Source: a virus
Reading direction: 5' to 3' (one strand)
Virus record (IMG/VR): IMGVR_UViG_3300049847_000125
Location: 1 to 23,691 of that record
Length of the DNA stretch: 23,691 nt
The translations under genes and the position numbers were made by a program. Within the stretch, counting starts at the first letter, position 1; each line of letters opens with the position of its first letter. The notes below the pieces were generated by a model, which was given only the letters and a program-made list of their open reading frames with translations, was not told the origin of the DNA and searched no databases. Below are positions 2,046-23,133 of this stretch, piece after piece.

Positions 2046-3674
2046 TTACAGGAAGCCGCCTGTCGTAAACATCAAGTCTATTCTTAGAAGTAGTGTCTCG
2101 CCCGTGCTAGTGCCAAGTAGCACCGCTGCAACGGCTCTACCAAGCCCCGTTCCGCCAGTCACCGACTCGATGGTAGCTGCGTCAGCTCCCCACAGTGCCG
2201 TATCCCATATGGCGTTCGCCGCATCCCACAAGTAAGCATTCGTAGTGGCTGATATAGCAGTTCCGCTATAATCATCTGTGTTGTAGTCATATCGCGCGGC
2301 GATACTGTAACTCGGGACAGCCGAAGCCCGGAAGATCGGGCGCAAAAGCTGTACCTGATGATACAGCGCGCTCTCGCCCAGATCTGAAAACGCGGTAATG
2401 AGAGAGAAGGTAATGGCGTTACCGCCAGTTCCAGTAAGCGATACTTTATCGCTATGCCCTGTCATCTTGTAGACTACGCCGCCAGCAGAGCCTATATAGA
2501 ACGTACCGTTCCACTGATCTCCCGTAACGTACTCTAGGTCTTGAAAGACACACCACCCGCTAGTGTGTGTCGACATGGCATACTGCTTGTACGCTAGTCC
2601 TGTTTGCTTAGGAACAGAGACTATAAAGACGTTTTCGCTAGGGATATTTCTAAGTTCCCACCCCTGCGTGGTACGGGACACTCCCATCTCGGTTGTAATC
2701 AGCGGGGAGATGTTGCGCGAAGCGTAAATATCGTTTGTCTGTACTGGGGCGCCAGAGATCAACTTGGAGAGCGGGAGTACACCGAGCTGACTCAGCAGGA
2801 ACAACTCACCACCAAAGGCAGCCCCCTGTCTACGCCCCGCCGGAACGCTGCCTATGTAATACTGGCCTACCACGTCCCAAGTTGCGGCGGCGGAGGGGTC
2901 AGTTCCTTTGTAGACGATCACGTCTCCGCCAGAACTGAGCGCCACTAAGTGGTCGTCAACACCGATACCACCGTCCACCGTCCAGTTCCACAGCCCAACC
3001 AGCGTACCACCGTGCTTGAACTTGTTGCCGAAGTCGAAGCGTGTAGCAGCGCCGGAAATCGCACCAGCGGCTAGATACCAGGCTCGTGCAGAATTATTCT
3101 CTACAAACCACAGGCGCCCTTTGTGCTGTACCACGAACATCAGCGTAGCTGATCCGCCTGCCGGGCCGGTAATGCCGGCTCCAGTCGCTACCCACGGGCC
3201 GCCTGATGGGTATTGATACAGGCCGTTTACAGCATCAGCGTAGAATACGTAATGCGCGCCATTATCCAGCACGAAGTCGGTCCACACCCCAAAGCCCGCA
3301 TCGCCAGTAGTCGTGCCGAAGGCAATAGAAGTAGCCCATGCCCCGCTTCCGCCTGCCGTAATATCGTAGATTCCAGCCGTACCAGTAACAAACAGCTTAT
3401 TGGTGGCTACGGTCGCCCCCTCGAAAGGGATGATCGTACGAATATCTGAACTACCGACGTTGGTAGCAAACTGCTGCGTCCCAGAACGTACTCTAAGCCC
3501 CCTTCCTTCAGCAATTAGGTTGTTGGCTAATACCGAGAAGCTAGGCTCAAGAGACGCCAGCGGATCGACAGCGTTAATCCCGCCTACTGGGGCCGGGAAC
3601 GGAACGCCCTGTAGATTAGCCGGACGCTTCTGCCCGAGCATACTCCCCTTCTGTACGGCAAATCCAGTACCCAT
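2046..3674 (-). CDS. Tail hub / packaged-DNA stabilisation protein (P22 gp10-like)
   Basis: 542 residues, rich in short beta strands with repeated G-x-x-Y/V patterns and aromatic turns (GRLWFVENNSARAWYL, GDVIVYKGTDPSAAATW, FYIGSAGGVVYKMTG), as expected of a beta-propeller-like podoviral tail nozzle. The N-terminus (VPFPAPVGGINAVDPLASLEP, then NNLIAEGRGLRVRSG) is the pattern usual at the start of this family. Length is close to P22 gp10 (about 470) and related hubs. It lies directly after the head-tail adaptor, as in P22-type modules, where it plugs the portal after packaging and attaches spikes or fibres. There is no strong RBS, and the start lies 3 nt after the previous stop. The structural assignment is confident; exact orthology is not. 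Confidence 0.8.
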   Translation of the reverse strand: MGTGFAVQKGSMLGQKRPANLQGVPFPAPVGGINAVDPLASLEPSFSVLANNLIAEGRGLRVRSGTQQFATNVGSSDIRTIIPFEGATVATNKLFVTGTAGIYDITAGGSGAWATSIAFGTTTGDAGFGVWTDFVLDNGAHYVFYADAVNGLYQYPSGGPWVATGAGITGPAGGSATLMFVVQHKGRLWFVENNSARAWYLAAGAISGAATRFDFGNKFKHGGTLVGLWNWTVDGGIGVDDHLVALSSGGDVIVYKGTDPSAAATWDVVGQYYIGSVPAGRRQGAAFGGELFLLSQLGVLPLSKLISGAPVQTNDIYASRNISPLITTEMGVSRTTQGWELRNIPSENVFIVSVPKQTGLAYKQYAMSTHTSGWCVFQDLEYVTGDQWNGTFYIGSAGGVVYKMTGHSDKVSLTGTGGNAITFSLITAFSDLGESALYHQVQLLRPIFRASAVPSYSIAARYDYNTDDYSGTAISATTNAYLWDAANAIWDTALWGADAATIESVTGGTGLGRAVAAVLLGTSTGETLLLRIDLMFTTGGFL

Positions 3675-18107: not shown

Positions 18108-18338
18108 ATGAAACCGCTATGCACAACGATTCATCTAAACACCGTATTGCGGGCAATGGCCGGCGATATGCGCCGCAATGCCCGAAGCATGGGAGTACCG
18201 CCAGCGTCCGCCAGAGAGTGCGTTCAGCGCGCTCTCTTGACGCTAGGCTTCGACACTCATACTTATAACTACGATGACCAGACATTCTGCAAGGCAATCC
18301 TGCTAATCACTAAAGACATCGCAAAGGAATCGGAGTAA
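18108..18338 (+). CDS. Small basic early protein of unknown function
   Basis: 76 residues with GGAG 7 nt before the ATG. Helical throughout: VLRAMAGDMRRNARSMGVPP, then RECVQRALLTLGFDTHTYNY and an amphipathic C-terminal helix (FCKAILLITKDIAKESE). The three Cys (5, 38 and 61) are scattered and do not form a zinc motif. It ends 5 nt before the amidoligase ATG, so the two are co-transcribed and perhaps co-translated. It could be a regulatory or partner subunit for the downstream enzyme pair, but only adjacency supports this. Confidence 0.65.
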   Translation: MKPLCTTIHLNTVLRAMAGDMRRNARSMGVPPASARECVQRALLTLGFDTHTYNYDDQTFCKAILLITKDIAKESE

Positions 18339-18343
18339 CTACC

Positions 18344-19432
18344 ATGCCCGAAGCAACTACACCTGGGGATCTACTTAGAGAGCCCACCACGGAAGAACAT
18401 GAAGCAGACGCTATGTATGGCGAGGAAGATGACCGCCGCTATACTCCCGAAGGAACAGCGATCCCACAATCTCTGTGGGATTCTTATCTCTGGAGTGAAC
18501 CGCAGAACGGATTTATTCCCGAAGCTACCGCTATCCGGCTTGCGGATAGTGACGACTGGGTAACGCGCGCATGGGCAGGGCTACATGCCTATTATCACGG
18601 GGATAGCGAGACTTGGTATGCCGAGGAAGATAATGTTCCGCAACCGGATTGCCCTGAGATATTCGGCTATGGGGAAAATGTTCTCAATCACTTTCTATTC
18701 GACCGCAATACTAAGGAATTGGTATTCGGTATCGAATTGGAAATGGAATCCAACGATGAGGATAATTCTGGAATGCTCTCTGCCCTTAATTCCCCGATAG
18801 GGGATCAGTACATAGTCAAGGAAGACGGGAGCCTACAGAACGGAGCGGAACTCGTATCTGTGCCAATGACGCTAGAACAGCATCGCACGCATAATTGGGA
18901 ACGGATTCTTAGAAACGTGCGCTCGCACGCGGCCGCCGGAACTACCAGCACCTGCGGCTTTCACGTCCATATCAACCGTCGCGCTTTGACACCTCTTACT
19001 GTCGGCAAGATGCTAGTAATGACTAACAGCATCGCCCCTGAGATGGTTAAGCTACTGGAAACCATCGCACAGCGTAGTGCCGGGCATTGGTGCCAGAAAA
19101 CTAAGAAAACGCTGGCGGATGGTAGGAAGCTTGATAGTTCGCACTACGAAATTCTCGGTCTTACTCGCAGGGGAACGTGCGAGCTACGCATGTTCCGTAG
19201 CAATCTGCGTTCCGATCGCGTGTACAAGAATATCGAATTCTGTCACGCTCTCGTCCGCTACTGCCAAGCTACTGCCGCTCGCTACATTGAACGAGCGGAT
19301 GTTTTCTTAGCTTGGCTGTACGGTAAGCGCAAAGACTATCCCGCGCTATGCGCCTTTCTTAGCGAAAAGAATCTGCCGGGCTGGACAGCTCTCACCGGAC
19401 ATGATACTATAACCGAAACCGAGGAAGCCTAA
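18344..19432 (+). CDS. Amidoligase-fold enzyme (COOH-NH2 ligase superfamily)
   Basis: 362 residues. An acidic N-terminal extension (about 1-120) precedes the catalytic region with the motifs of the putative phage/bacterial amidoligase family: VFGIELEME (127-135), VKEDGSLQNGAELVSVPM (158-175), TCGFHVHINR (203-212) and the closing YEILGLTRRGTCELRMFRS (268-286). The Glu pair in FGIELE, the Glu in KEDGS and GAELVS and the His pair in GFHVHI are the expected metal/ATP site residues of this glutamine-synthetase-like fold. Family knowledge: such enzymes are predicted to join a carboxylate to an amine using ATP. GGAG stands 8 nt upstream. The next gene, a glutamine amidotransferase 2 nt away, could supply ammonia. 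The substrate is unknown. Confidence 0.85.
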   Translation: MPEATTPGDLLREPTTEEHEADAMYGEEDDRRYTPEGTAIPQSLWDSYLWSEPQNGFIPEATAIRLADSDDWVTRAWAGLHAYYHGDSETWYAEEDNVPQPDCPEIFGYGENVLNHFLFDRNTKELVFGIELEMESNDEDNSGMLSALNSPIGDQYIVKEDGSLQNGAELVSVPMTLEQHRTHNWERILRNVRSHAAAGTTSTCGFHVHINRRALTPLTVGKMLVMTNSIAPEMVKLLETIAQRSAGHWCQKTKKTLADGRKLDSSHYEILGLTRRGTCELRMFRSNLRSDRVYKNIEFCHALVRYCQATAARYIERADVFLAWLYGKRKDYPALCAFLSEKNLPGWTALTGHDTITETEEA

Positions 19433-19434
19433 CC

Positions 19435-20298
19435 ATGTGTCTAATCATCTATTCCCCGAAAGGGGAGCCTATCGAACGGCGGATCTTCGAGTTTGCCCGT
19501 CGAGAAAATCCCGATGGCATTGGCATAATGTCGCCGGGAGGTGTAGGCAAATTCATCGGCAAAAAGAGTAGCAAGAAAGCATGGGCTCTCTTGACTAGGC
19601 TTTCTAAGAATAATACGCCTTTTGCTATTCACTTCCGCTGGCGTACTCACGGGCCGATCAATCGTGACCTATGCCACCCATACGCCAGCACCGATGGCGG
19701 GACACTGGTTATGCACAATGGCGTTATCTACGCCACGGGCAAGGATGCGAAAGAGCATGAATCCGATACCTTAGTATTCGTGCGCGACTACGTAGATCTA
19801 ACCGGCATGCTCCCTGATTCCCCTAGCTATAAGCGGGAGCTAGTAGAGTATGAGAAATTCATAGGCTACGGTAACAAGCTATGCGTGCTGGATATTGCTA
19901 CCGGCACGTTTAGCCTATGCAATGAATATCAGGGGAGCTGGATAGGCGGGCTTTGGTACAGCAACGAGTACAGCCTACCGTATGACTTGCAGACGCCTAC
20001 CTATCATCAGGGCTTGGTAACTAAGTACACTGGCGGGCCGCTGGCGCTTACGCCTTACTCCCTGTCGGCGGACGAGAATGGCGCGCTAGACCGCGCTCTA
20101 GCTAAGGTGAAGCGTGAGAGCGCCGCACATCTAGACAACGAGAATAGTTACTACCGCGCCAAGTCACAAGAGCCCGGATACTTTGACGACGGTGCGGAGT
20201 TAGGCGTGTACGCAGCGCTTCGCGCTTGGGGAGATAATGACGATAGGGACTATAGAGTCATGCTTAGACGCGCCGCTATCAGCGGCAAGGGGCATTAA
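19435..20298 (+). CDS. Class II glutamine amidotransferase (Ntn hydrolase)
   Basis: 287 residues. After Met removal Cys2 becomes the N-terminal nucleophile (MCLIIYS). The other class II landmarks are present: RRENPDGIGIM (22-32), HFRWRTHGPI (66-75), the MHNGVI oxyanion motif (93-98) and HESDT (108-112). Residues about 142-175 resemble the end of the domain; the remaining 110 residues are unassigned and charged. The enzyme should hydrolyse glutamine to glutamate and release ammonia. It has no fused synthase or QueC domain, so it must act alone or with a partner. The adjacent amidoligase, 2 nt upstream, is the natural one. GAGG lies about 9 nt before the start. Confidence 0.88.
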   Translation: MCLIIYSPKGEPIERRIFEFARRENPDGIGIMSPGGVGKFIGKKSSKKAWALLTRLSKNNTPFAIHFRWRTHGPINRDLCHPYASTDGGTLVMHNGVIYATGKDAKEHESDTLVFVRDYVDLTGMLPDSPSYKRELVEYEKFIGYGNKLCVLDIATGTFSLCNEYQGSWIGGLWYSNEYSLPYDLQTPTYHQGLVTKYTGGPLALTPYSLSADENGALDRALAKVKRESAAHLDNENSYYRAKSQEPGYFDDGAELGVYAALRAWGDNDDRDYRVMLRRAAISGKGH

Positions 20299-20299
20299 T

Positions 20300-20485
20300 A
20301 TGCACTACTTAGATAGGCTAGCGCGCGAACAAGCGCGAACAGTTGAGTATGCGCGCTTGTACAAAGCCCTGAGAAGCAAAAACTTCGTCGAGGCGTACAT
20401 GGGCCTTGATCCATACGTGCTACCGTATGGTCCAGCTCTGGACCAAGCAATCCGAGAGGCAATCAAGCAAAAGGAACGGACATGA
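20300..20485 (+). CDS. Small early protein, 61 aa
   Basis: 61 residues from the ATG at 20300 (MHYLDRLAREQARTVEYARL), preferred over an upstream start inside the amidotransferase because AAGGGG lies about 8 nt before it and it follows that stop by 1 nt. N-terminal basic helix (LAREQARTVEYARLYKALRS), a VEAYMGLDPYVLPYGPALDQ middle and a charged helical end (AIREAIKQKERT). Function not recognised; the tight spacing suggests it belongs to the same translational unit as the enzyme pair. Confidence 0.65.
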   Translation: MHYLDRLAREQARTVEYARLYKALRSKNFVEAYMGLDPYVLPYGPALDQAIREAIKQKERT

Positions 20486-20682
20486 ATACCGAAACAGGAC
20501 GCTACAGACTGCTGGACACCTACTACCCGAGTAAGTCTCCGGCATCGCAGTACATGACGCTATTCGCTGCTACTACCGCAGCCATGCTGCGCAACATAGC
20601 TACAGGGCAGCCGCACCGATACATTGTGCGCAGCGTAGTCATGGAAGCCGTAGAGCCCTTTCGAAGCATAGGCGCGCTCTAA
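20482..20682 (+). CDS. Small early protein, 66 aa
   Basis: 66 residues; the start overlaps the previous stop by 4 nt (ATGA) and AAGGAA precedes it. TGRYRLLDTYYPSKSPASQY is followed by a helical stretch MTLFAATTAAMLRNIATGQP and VRSVVMEAVEPFRSIGAL. The middle helix is moderately hydrophobic but too short and polar at its ends for a sure membrane span. No family recognised; it is part of the chain of coupled tiny genes. Confidence 0.6.
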   Translation: MNTETGRYRLLDTYYPSKSPASQYMTLFAATTAAMLRNIATGQPHRYIVRSVVMEAVEPFRSIGAL

Positions 20683-20683
20683 T

Positions 20684-20800
20684 ATGATCCGAGATACCAG
20701 CTTCGAGCGTATCCTACCGCTAATCGCGTGCGCTCTAGGAGTTGTGGTCATGCTGGCAGTCGCCAGTGTTGCCATGGTCGTCTACGCCACCACCAAGTAA
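20684..20800 (+). CDS. 38-residue single-span membrane peptide
   Basis: Reading frame MIRDTSFERILPLIACALGV continuing to VVYATTK, 38 residues, starting 1 nt after the previous stop (TAATATG). Residues about 10-34 are strongly hydrophobic (LPLIACALGVVVMLAVASVA) with a positively charged N-terminal side (R3, R9) and a Lys at the end, so it should insert as one transmembrane helix. There is no own ribosome site, so coupling is likely. It could be a small holin-like, antiholin or superinfection-exclusion peptide; sequence alone cannot decide. Confidence 0.55.
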   Translation: MIRDTSFERILPLIACALGVVVMLAVASVAMVVYATTK

Positions 20801-20827
20801 TTTCATACACCCAATAGGTGAACACAA

Positions 20828-21022
20828 ATGGGAATGGATGAATACGAACAAGAACAGCTTGCCTACTTACTGGCTGATTGCGCTCATACACTAAACGAGA
20901 TAGGCGCATTCTTAGATTCTATCCGTGATGAAGTACCTGGAACTTATAATTGTTATGATGGAGATATTCTAAGAAAGCGTATCCGAGAAACCGTGGAGCG
21001 TATTACCTGTGCGGGCTACTGA
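20828..21022 (+). CDS. Small acidic early protein, 64 aa
   Basis: 64 residues with AGGTG 7-8 nt before the ATG at 20828; a second in-frame ATG follows two codons later. The N-terminus is acidic (MGMDEYEQEQLAYLLADCAH), followed by a helix (TLNEIGAFLDSIRDEVPGTY) and a C-terminal helix LRKRIRETVERITCAGY. Small acidic early proteins of phages often bind host factors or mimic DNA, but nothing specific is visible here. Confidence 0.65.
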   Translation: MGMDEYEQEQLAYLLADCAHTLNEIGAFLDSIRDEVPGTYNCYDGDILRKRIRETVERITCAGY

Positions 21023-21236
21023 ATACAAGCTTATGCTAGCGCGTAAGCGCATAGCTACTCTGGAAAGACAGTGTAACAGCTATGGGACAAAGATTCTAAG
21101 TCTTACCATGTCTCTGAGGATGGCTAGAAAGAAGCTAGCTAGTTTACCCCTTAGTCCTGAGATACAGTACGCTATTGCCCCGCTATCGCGGGGAAGGGTA
21201 GACTTACTCCGGGAGAGATTCTGCACTAGGGGATGA
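21009..21236 (+). CDS. Small basic coiled-coil protein, last gene before the LexA node
   Basis: 75 residues from a GTG at 21009, overlapping the previous gene by 14 nt; GGAG lies about 11 nt upstream. An ATG at 21033 (MLARKRIATLERQ) is the alternative start but has no ribosome site. Basic, with a coiled-coil-like helix (LMLARKRIATLERQCNSYGT) and RMARKKLASLPLSPEIQY, then RGRVDLLRERFCTRG. It is the opposite in charge to the acidic neighbour with which it overlaps, so the two could form a complex; this is speculation. A leftward RNA from the promoter at 21399-21450 would be antisense to its end. Confidence 0.55.
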   Translation: MRATEYKLMLARKRIATLERQCNSYGTKILSLTMSLRMARKKLASLPLSPEIQYAIAPLSRGRVDLLRERFCTRG

Positions 21237-21338
21237 TCCCAGATCGGCATAACCCCCCAAACCCCCCAGTGTTGCTTATATACAACACAAGAGAGTCTGG
21301 GAGCGTTACACGCGACTGGTATGATCCCGAGTCGGCAT
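21233..21338. repeat. Imperfect direct repeat and hairpin in the second control region
   Basis: An 18-bp unit (ATGATCCC, 3 bp, TCGGCAT) at 21233-21250 recurs at 21321-21338 with 15 of 18 bases identical. Between them are AACCCCCCAAACCCCCCAG and a stem GTGTTG/CAACAC (21269-21274 with 21283-21288). No gene is present in 21237-21514. The repeats may be protein sites or remnants of a duplication. Confidence 0.45.
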
Positions 21339-21398
21339 GATCCGACAGAGTACTTATAGCGCGCCTTTCTCTGCTACGGAAGTTTCCCCCCGGCGCGT

Positions 21399-21450
21399 GT
21401 AAATTCTCAATTTACCTACCTATTATAGCATAGTCTGAGCCCGCTGTCAA
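21399..21450 (-). promoter_or_regulatory. Consensus leftward sigma70 promoter with downstream inverted repeat, copy 2
   Basis: On the minus strand: -35 TTGACA (21445-21450), 17-bp spacer, extended -10 TGC-TATAAT (21422-21427), a full consensus match. The expected start is near 21415, and there begins an inverted repeat GTAAATT/AATTTAC (21399-21415). It is the same cassette as at 17090-17141. No leftward ORF longer than a few codons follows, so the product would be an untranslated or antisense RNA running into the early gene cluster. Confidence 0.8.
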
Positions 21451-21451
21451 G

Positions 21452-21471
21452 TACTGTATATAATTACAGTA
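21452..21471. promoter_or_regulatory. LexA box (SOS box) between divergent promoters
   Basis: TACTGTATATAATTACAGTA: 18 of 20 bases equal the E. coli LexA consensus, and the CTGT-N8-ACAG core and both outer TA pairs are intact. It lies exactly between the two -35 boxes (leftward 21445-21450, rightward 21472-21477), so bound LexA would block both promoters. DNA damage in the host would release them. Confidence 0.85.
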
Positions 21472-21500
21472 TTGACTTATTCCGCTGAGTGTGCTATAAT
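21472..21500 (+). promoter_or_regulatory. Rightward sigma70 promoter under LexA control
   Basis: TTGACT (21472-21477), 17-bp spacer, extended -10 TGC-TATAAT (21495-21500). Transcription should start near 21506-21508, only about 8 nt before the first ATG at 21515 or 20 nt before the second in-frame ATG at 21527. It drives the 127-residue gene and probably the downstream genes. Confidence 0.85.
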
Positions 21501-21514
21501 ACATAGGTATAACA

Positions 21515-21898
21515 ATGAAGCATACTATGCCTAACTATATCCCGCCCAACGAGTTCATAGACGAACTGGCAGCGTTTAATCCTCGCTGGCAGCAATGCTA
21601 TGCCACAATCTTAGAAACTGCCCGGGCTGCCGGCCTTGAGGCCAGTTACTGGGGATGGCTGTCCAGTAGTGAGGGGAGGCACTATGCTGAGACTATGAGG
21701 GGGGTACCGGATACTCTGGGGGCTCAAAGGCGCGCTAGGGCCGCATTAGATCGTCTAATGGCGGACATCGCGGCAGACCTGGGGGGTAGGGCAGGGGGTA
21801 ATGAGGAAGGCGAAGGGGTTGACAGCAGGGAGGATTCCTGCTATAGTGACGAAACAGGGGATATTTGCTTAATTCCAACGGAGAGAGATTATGTTTAA
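21515..21898 (+). CDS. SOS-regulated early protein of unknown function
   Basis: 127 residues (123 if started at the ATG at 21527, which would have a more normal leader; the first ATG has only AGG and a nearly leaderless message). A helical N-terminal region (NEFIDELAAFNPRWQQCYAT, then ILETARAAGLEASYWGW) is followed by SSEGRHYAETMRGVPDTLGA and an Arg/Ala-rich helix (RRARAALDRLMADIAADLGG). The tail (about 90-127) is Gly/Glu/Asp-rich and probably disordered. No family recognised. Known LexA-controlled phage genes encode antirepressors or other induction proteins (coliphage 186 Tum is one), so such a role is a hypothesis. Its 3' end contains a promoter for the next gene. Confidence 0.65.
   Translation: MKHTMPNYIPPNEFIDELAAFNPRWQQCYATILETARAAGLEASYWGWLSSSEGRHYAETMRGVPDTLGAQRRARAALDRLMADIAADLGGRAGGNEEGEGVDSREDSCYSDETGDICLIPTERDYV
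21819..21847 (+). promoter_or_regulatory. Promoter with palindromic spacer before the secreted-protein gene
   Basis: TTGACA (21819-21824), 17-bp spacer, extended -10 TGC-TATAGT (21842-21847), inside the end of the upstream gene. The spacer is filled by an inverted repeat AGCAGG/CCTGCT (21824-21829 and 21837-21842), a probable operator whose occupancy would exclude RNA polymerase. The leader to the ATG at 21891 is about 37 nt and contains GGAGAG. Confidence 0.65.
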
Positions 21899-22322
21899 GG
21901 GAACGATTGCTGCCGCCATGCTGGCGGCGAGTGCTGTGGCGGCGGCGGATACTGTGTATCCGTTGCCTGATCCGACGATTACCGTCAATCCGAGCGTGTA
22001 TGGAAATACGATTGTCTCGGTTGATGGTGTTGTCTATAGGGGGCCGACAGCCTTTGTCTATGTGAGTGAGTGTCCGACGCCAGACGGCCCGCGCTATCAC
22101 TGCAATATCGTGCGTGAGGATAACGTGCCGCTGTATGCGACGGACGGAAGTGGGGCCTACGTCACTGTGACGCTGGTTGTGCAGATGGGTGCGCGCCTGA
22201 TTACGTCTGGGCATAATTGGTGGAGATCGTTCGCCATGGTTCTCGACGGTAGTGTTACCGTGCCGGATGCTGTAGTCCCGGCCGCTGATCCGGTTCCGGT
22301 CGATACGGTGCCGGCTGCGTAA
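21891..22322 (+). CDS. Secreted (periplasmic) phage protein
   Basis: 143 residues with a clear Sec signal peptide: basic start MFKG, hydrophobic core IAAAMLAASAV and likely cleavage after AVAAA (residue 19/20). The mature part is beta-rich with two Cys that could form a disulfide (YVSECPTPDGPRYHCN, about 58-73). It also has a VTVTLVVQMGARLITSGHNW segment and a Pro/Ala/Val-rich end. GGAGAG precedes the ATG, which overlaps the previous stop by 8 nt. It probably acts in the periplasm or cell envelope; superinfection exclusion or envelope modification are possibilities. No family recognised. Confidence 0.7.
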   Translation: MFKGTIAAAMLAASAVAAADTVYPLPDPTITVNPSVYGNTIVSVDGVVYRGPTAFVYVSECPTPDGPRYHCNIVREDNVPLYATDGSGAYVTVTLVVQMGARLITSGHNWWRSFAMVLDGSVTVPDAVVPAADPVPVDTVPAA

Positions 22323-22323
22323 C

Positions 22324-23133
22324 ATGCTGTCCGATTCTCAAGTCGCAGAGTTACTGCGTCGCACCGAAGGCCAGTCAGGGAATAACCTTACGACTGAATG
22401 CCCGACATGCGGGGAGCGTAACTTTACAGTGAAGCGTGAGGGAGTAAAGCTGCTATGGCATTGCTTCCGCGCTTCGTGCGGCGAGCAGGGCGGAGTGTTC
22501 ATTCCCGGAGCGCTCTCAATGTCCGATGACACAGCGAGAGTCTCCGAGGAAGCCGCCTTGCGCCCCTATCGCGGGGATATACTTAGCTTAAGCGATGCTC
22601 AGGCAGAAAAACTGAGCGCTAGATTTGGAGTAAACCCTAAGCTACTGAAACAGCACGTTTACACCGATAATCTGCGCTATGTGCTGCCTATTTATGCGCC
22701 CCGAGGAACGACTCGGGGCCATACTTTACGCCTCCCCTGGGGCGGTACTGAACTAGGGGATAAGAAAGCTATCGCCGGAGTTAAGAGCCTAACTTTTCAG
22801 AGTGAAGTAGGGCCGCTAATGAGCTGGTATGGCCCTAGCACGGAACAACTACCGACAATCTTAGTTGAAGATCAGATGAGTGCGATCAAGATAAGCGCAC
22901 GGCTAGTGCGCTCTGTGGCCTTGCTTGGAACGAATCTAAACACAGATAAGGTGGCGGAGTTGCAAAGATACACAAGACGTGTTATACTAGCGCTAGACGC
23001 TGATGCTACGTCCAAGGCGTTTGATCTAGCACGAACATGGCAACATGCGTTCGATTATTTTCGCGTGGTGATTCTGACTAAAGACGTTAAAGACATGAGT
23101 CATACAGAGATCAGCTATGCATTTACCATTTAA
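22324..23133 (+). CDS. DNA primase: zinc finger plus TOPRIM, no helicase domain
   Basis: 269 residues. An N-terminal zinc ribbon with Cys26, Cys29, Cys47 and Cys52 (TECPTCGERN; WHCFRASCGEQGG) should read the primase start site. A middle region (about 75-165) leads to the TOPRIM fold with ILVEDQMSAIKIS (Glu182) and VILALDADATSKAF (Asp225, Asp227), then VVILTKDVKDMS as the last acidic strand. This corresponds to the primase half of T7 gp4 and should make RNA primers on single-stranded DNA. No Walker helicase domain follows, and none is encoded before the window end. The start is 1 nt after the previous stop with no strong ribosome site. Confidence 0.85.
   Translation: MLSDSQVAELLRRTEGQSGNNLTTECPTCGERNFTVKREGVKLLWHCFRASCGEQGGVFIPGALSMSDDTARVSEEAALRPYRGDILSLSDAQAEKLSARFGVNPKLLKQHVYTDNLRYVLPIYAPRGTTRGHTLRLPWGGTELGDKKAIAGVKSLTFQSEVGPLMSWYGPSTEQLPTILVEDQMSAIKISARLVRSVALLGTNLNTDKVAELQRYTRRVILALDADATSKAFDLARTWQHAFDYFRVVILTKDVKDMSHTEISYAFTI

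Follow-up and report, generated by a model that had tools for sequence, protein, structure and literature searches.

Amidoligase_2 paired with a class II glutamine amidotransferase-type protein, a predicted amide module, in a phage genome fragment

A phage fragment from IMG/VR, a partial genome of 23,691 bases that is referred to here in its entirety as the window, carries an Amidoligase_2 gene followed on the same (plus) strand, after 2 nt, by the gene for a class II (Ntn) glutamine amidotransferase-type protein (Table 1). The catalytic residues of both families are intact, the two genes are near-obligatorily paired across phages and bacteria and, in some relatives of the amidoligase, the amidotransferase is replaced by gamma-glutamyl cyclotransferase (GGCT). 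The pair adds a new, reduced member to a phage cassette type that is already known, and lies upstream of a primase. From sequences and models it is tentatively predicted to be a two-enzyme amide module, combining ATP-dependent gamma-glutamyl-type ligation with cleavage of gamma-glutamyl amides.

Table 1. Features of the window in and around the amidoligase/amidotransferase pair
Feature	Position	Strand	Basis or comment
76-aa ORF, upstream	18108..18338	+	not conserved; excluded from the system
Amidoligase_2 (PF12224) protein, 362 aa, YbdK/GS/GCS carboxylate-amine ligase fold	18344..19432	+	Pfam; fold match (model)
FGIELE motif, predicted metal/ATP site	18725..18742	+	G129, E131 and E133 invariant in 28 relatives (alignment)
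Stand-alone class II (Ntn) glutamine amidotransferase-type protein, 287 aa, without acceptor domain	19435..20298	+	GlmS profile and fold matches
Cys2, predicted N-terminal nucleophile once Met is removed	19438..19440	+	invariant in 27 relatives
HFRWRTHG motif, predicted glutamine carboxylate-binding Arg68 (GlmS Arg73)	19630..19653	+	alignment; PDB profile match
HNG motif, predicted oxyanion hole	19714..19722	+	alignment; PDB profile match
SDT motif, Asp111 (GlmS Asp123 equivalent)	19762..19770	+	sequence; alignment of relatives
61-aa ORF, downstream, ATG at 20300	20300..20485	+	not conserved; excluded from the system
DNA primase (Toprim)	22324..23133	+	Pfam and PHROGs matches; ties the pair to the replication region, cf. 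LUZ24 and phiEco32

Results

Families and folds of the two proteins

The first protein is an Amidoligase_2 enzyme, as a preliminary description of this DNA had proposed: PF12224 matches it with an E-value of 5e-12 and 46.6 bits, above the curated cut-off of 22, and PHROGs amidoligase families match it as well, placing it within the amidoligase superfamily. The FGIELE, KEDGS, GAELVS and GFHVHI motifs are all present, and the ExE, D-G-S, E, C-G-x-H-x-H and T-E-x-R columns of the amidoligase alignment are invariant. AlphaFold2 models of both proteins were made, the input in each case being the window sequence together with those of relatives from IMG/VR. The amidoligase model (mean pLDDT 74) has YbdK as its best PDB match (1r8g, E 7e-6), followed by glutamine synthetase (GS), the Pup ligase PafA and depupylase Dop, and gamma-glutamylcysteine synthetase (GCS); by sequence, no match was obtained in the PDB. 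The modelled fold is thus that of the carboxylate-amine ligases, with the proviso that the TM-scores of both protein models are modest (0.5 at best) and that parts of each model are of low confidence. The enzyme is predicted to make amide bonds with ATP. Before the amidoligase core, near relatives with a readable N-terminus have at least one CxxC motif and the window protein has none, the CxxC zinc-ribbon of those relatives having been lost from its N-terminal region (18344-18724).

The second protein is of the class II (Ntn) type, with a complete set of predicted catalytic residues that do not vary in the alignment and, in its model, the fold of the GlmS glutaminase. Cys2, NPDG, HFRWRTHG, HNG and SDT are all found in it, every amidotransferase locus examined begins Met1-Cys2 (MC), and the HFRWRTHG and HNG motifs align with GlmS in a profile comparison. 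The family profile matched the GlmS glutaminase in the PDB (1xff, E 2e-5) and also PurF; the model (mean pLDDT 72), in which the N-terminal 180 residues are confident and the C-terminus is not, placed the GlmS glutaminase domain first (E 5e-7), with weaker fold matches to EgtC (E 2e-3), AsnB and PurF. A comparison of EgtC with the amidotransferase family by sequence gave no match. Because GATase_6 (PF13522) scored 21.4 bits, below its gathering cut-off of 27, the protein is named by its residues and fold rather than by Pfam, and it is on the residues, the GlmS profile match and the GlmS fold that the class II assignment of the preliminary description is upheld. An NCBIfam assignment was set aside, the only matches being short ones to GlmS that fall far under the cut-off. 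Both genes are under purifying selection, with dN/dS of about 0.1-0.3.

Pairing of the amidoligase and the amidotransferase

Used as the sole query in a scan of IMG/VR, the amidotransferase found 42 loci, 41 of which have an Amidoligase_2 gene (above cut-off) directly upstream in the same order, the contig of the remaining one (L022) starting 90 nt before the amidotransferase. Searching from the other side, an amidotransferase lies downstream in 76 of the 80 viral loci found by their amidoligase (the first distance rule counts 68, and 8 more have ORF ends that overlap by >100 nt); in the remaining four, the sequence breaks off within ~54 nt of the amidoligase. The amidotransferase is a separate downstream gene in 74/80 bacterial loci; the other six comprise one single ORF, one defective amidotransferase, one locus without the amidotransferase (L079) and three contig-end cuts. 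Within clade 2, to which the window belongs, 217 of 220 uncut loci are paired, many of these loci being related, and the three unpaired ones include a single ORF with both domains and a truncated amidotransferase; after dereplication, this amidotransferase is the partner in 72/72 representatives. The tree took in loci with a readable partner and left the others out, and the viral and bacterial locus sets are partly redundant. The median ORF gap between the two genes is 2 nt. Conservation of the pair in related phages, on which the preliminary description had made its reading depend, is therefore found, and the genomic data support the proposal that the two proteins form one conserved functional unit.

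Three unusual loci were observed. In a Clostridia MAG a 723-aa ORF (L116:1674-3845) spans the two domains, amidoligase and amidotransferase; as evidence for a fusion protein it is not firm, since the catalytic Cys would lie inside the ORF unless translation starts internally. An amidotransferase ORF without the catalytic stretch (L054:9119-9691), probably decaying, lies beside an intact-looking amidoligase. A 102-kb phage contig (L142) has two amidoligase ORFs, with an amidotransferase after each.

The bacterial copies of the pair sit mostly on mobile elements, resolvases being present within ~6 kb in 49/80 loci, integrases in 28, relaxases in 24 and DUF960 genes in 22.

Exchange of the partner with GGCT

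Among the canonical, full-profile Amidoligase_2 genes of the bacterial genomes searched (17 loci, mostly Clostridia), GGCT lies directly downstream in 14 and the amidotransferase in none. One subclade of gut phages (Heliusvirales) has both partner types: the amidotransferase accompanies the amidoligase in L048, L209, L210, L211, L213 and L216, and GGCT does so in L212, L215, L217, L218 and L219. Amidoligases across the two partner types are 55-78% identical. When ten whole gut-phage records were searched, five had the amidotransferase, five had GGCT and none had both (Fisher p 0.008, the ten records being related to one another); chance accounts poorly for this exclusivity, albeit among related records. 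The complete genomes PV036454 and PV036419, whose amidoligases are 72% identical, have one partner type apiece, located behind two or three small genes, and in L048, L209, L212 and L219 either kind of partner precedes the same convergent downstream gene block. A tree made by a quick method needs four partner changes, at least three of them forced by strongly supported branches; in it the gut-phage swap clade is separate from that of the window, which is amidotransferase-only.

Replacement of the partner without co-occurrence in the records searched spans L048, L209-L219 and L260. Ten phage loci (L145, L146, L147, L151, L162, L167, L168, L170, L177 and L204) have a gene of the GGCT type, but of another subtype, >2.5 kb downstream of the pair.

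Neighbouring genes in the window

The late genes (terminase, portal and major head protein) occupy the minus strand of the window, and a plus-strand block holds both the pair and the primase, which lies ~2 kb 3' of the pair (~2.3 kb in the nearest phages). The pair is located next to replication genes, upstream of the primase as in LUZ24 and phiEco32. The two ORFs, their spacing, their motifs and the flanking 76-aa and 61-aa ORFs exist as the preliminary description gave them. Its suggestion that these tightly spaced flanking genes might be partner subunits is not supported: zero homologues of either were present among ~250 fetched loci, unlike the window primase and a 127-aa window gene, homologues of which are present. 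Since neither is conserved, a subunit role for them is unlikely as judged from the loci compared.

Neither Pfam nor PHROGs gave a match to a COOH-NH2 ligase, an ATP-grasp protein or GGCT in the ORFs scanned between the amidotransferase and the primase (20299-22323), and no GGCT was found in the 23,691 bases of this partial contig. A search with PF14395 (COOH-NH2 ligase) gave no signal in the window, and none in the controls either, and is hence uninformative.

The position of the pair on the replication side, and its occurrence on phages and on conjugative or integrative elements, would suit a role in counter-defence or nucleic-acid modification, with the pair amidating a base, a nucleotide or a defence protein. 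Such a role is nevertheless very unlikely, in that no linked nucleotide-modification genes were recognised near the window pair with Pfam or PHROGs and PADLOC returned no match; a defence system identity for the pair was rejected on the latter ground.

Two minus-strand genes were noted in addition: a GNAT-like acyltransferase (phrog_4470, 1634-2044) among the late genes, and an ORF (2046-3674) that matches a PHROG labelled "amidase (lysis)" yet adjoins a tail gene, such that the label may be a misannotation.

Discussion

The phiEco32/LUZ24-type cassette of Iyer et al. 2009 is said to comprise LUZ24 gp16-gp22 and phiEco32 gp77-gp86. In both phages a COOH-NH2 ligase, an amidoligase, a class II amidotransferase, a RimK-like ATP-grasp protein and GGCT are followed by primase/helicase, and the profiles built in this analysis hit the amidoligase and the amidotransferase of each phage. 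As in the window, the amidoligase is followed directly by the class II amidotransferase, with the primase downstream. By contrast, neither a COOH-NH2 ligase nor a RimK-like ATP-grasp protein or GGCT was recognised between amidotransferase and primase in the window; the proteins of the two phages are also very divergent from those of the window, their amidotransferases having 510 and 676 aa as compared with 287 aa. Because the extra cassette enzymes were not found, the window is described as holding the core pair and not the cassette.

Earlier papers already report that phiEco32, LUZ24-like phages, Marvin and OM43 phages carry the pair (PMC10580990, PMC3890496, PMC5498523). The OM43 phages MEP401/402 and the mycobacteriophage Marvin cluster (PMC10580990) have a two-gene version in the order of the window, with homologous domain cores, but belong to other phage lineages, have larger amidoligases and are 25-33% identical. 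In mobile elements of Firmicutes (Tn6164, PMC3485107; Clostridium prophages, PMC11318856), the same ligase family also has its partner directly downstream, the partner there being GGCT (AIG2) and not a class II amidotransferase.

Further afield, ergothioneine synthesis employs EgtA, a GCS-type ligase that works with EgtC, a class II-fold gamma-glutamyl hydrolase. This is likewise a ligase with a class II-fold partner; it differs from the window pair in its unrelated pathway, in the lack of a sequence match to EgtC and in a fold match to EgtC weaker than that to GlmS.

With regard to mechanism, the amidoligase would activate a carboxylate with ATP and join the activated group to an amine, a gamma-glutamyl-type amide being the best guess for its product from the fold and the identity of its partners. 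The amidotransferase would be an N-terminal-Cys enzyme cleaving gamma-glutamyl amides, either glutamine or a gamma-glutamylated intermediate, and would contribute to the pathway of the amidoligase by editing, by deprotection or by release of an amine. The module may be regarded as accessory to the phages and other mobile elements that carry it; its target is probably some molecule of the host, which may belong to the cell envelope. We infer that the enzymes are active, that their substrate is of the gamma-glutamyl type and that the target lies in the host; the preliminary description held the substrates of phage amidoligases to be undefined, with which we agree.

The main alternative as to chemistry, and that favoured in the preliminary description, is transfer of ammonia: the class II domain would hydrolyse glutamine and the amidoligase would amidate a host carboxylate, e.g. 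that of a peptidoglycan stem peptide. The intact GlmS-type glutaminase signature, the lack of an acceptor domain in the amidotransferase itself, the tight adjacency of the genes and the one single ORF with both domains are as would be expected for this process, and enzymes of the GS fold can use ammonia. Replacement by GGCT in relatives with 55-78% identical amidoligases is hard to reconcile with it unless GGCT also frees an amine, and GGCT is not known to donate ammonia. Ammonia transfer is thus somewhat weakened by the finding of GGCT at the same place in a related clade, and we consider it possible but doubtful. Gamma-glutamyl ligation and cleavage comes slightly ahead of pure ammonia transfer because class II amidotransferases and GGCT share the cleavage of gamma-glutamyl amides. 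Counting against the gamma-glutamyl proposal, LUZ24 and phiEco32 keep both partners in one cassette and ten phage loci have GGCT farther downstream of the pair, so that the roles of the partners are not always exclusive; the HFRW-THG/SDT signature is nearer to the ammonia-yielding GlmS than to EgtC-type hydrolases; and the gut-phage swap belongs to a clade other than that of the window. In LUZ24-type phages an extra ATP-grasp ligase adjoins GGCT. The two chemistries would be unified if either partner, by cleaving a gamma-glutamyl amide, released an amine, which might be ammonia or something larger.

A bolder form of the gamma-glutamyl proposal, which seems improbable at present, is that the amidotransferase and GGCT are interchangeable "erasers" and Amidoligase_2 the "writer" in reversible gamma-glutamyl tagging of a host protein or envelope amine by phages and mobile elements. 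The Amidoligase_2 enzyme shares its fold superfamily with the Pup ligase PafA.

A further proposal, made for phiEco32-type cassettes in papers that cite Iyer 2009 (PMC10580990, PMC5498523, PMC11318856), is that cell-wall or surface modification serves superinfection exclusion, the ligases building unusual peptide links which the amidotransferase and GGCT trim. Since it concerns target and purpose, it fits gamma-glutamyl or ammonia chemistry alike. The gene order is the same in LUZ24 and phiEco32, which argues for it; the lack, between amidotransferase and primase of the window, of the additional cassette enzymes does not, nor does the presence of the pair on integrative and conjugative elements, where such a role is less obvious. 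Together with the finding of no experiment on it in a literature search, these points lead us to regard it as rather unlikely.

Phages and mobile elements of Firmicutes carry the pair widely, and the literature search found no experiment on its activity. Near-obligatory pairing and the clean exchange with GGCT make the open annotation directly testable, the exchange of partners being the part worth following: if GGCT could stand in for the amidotransferase, the chemistry would be indicated and the search for the host target narrowed.
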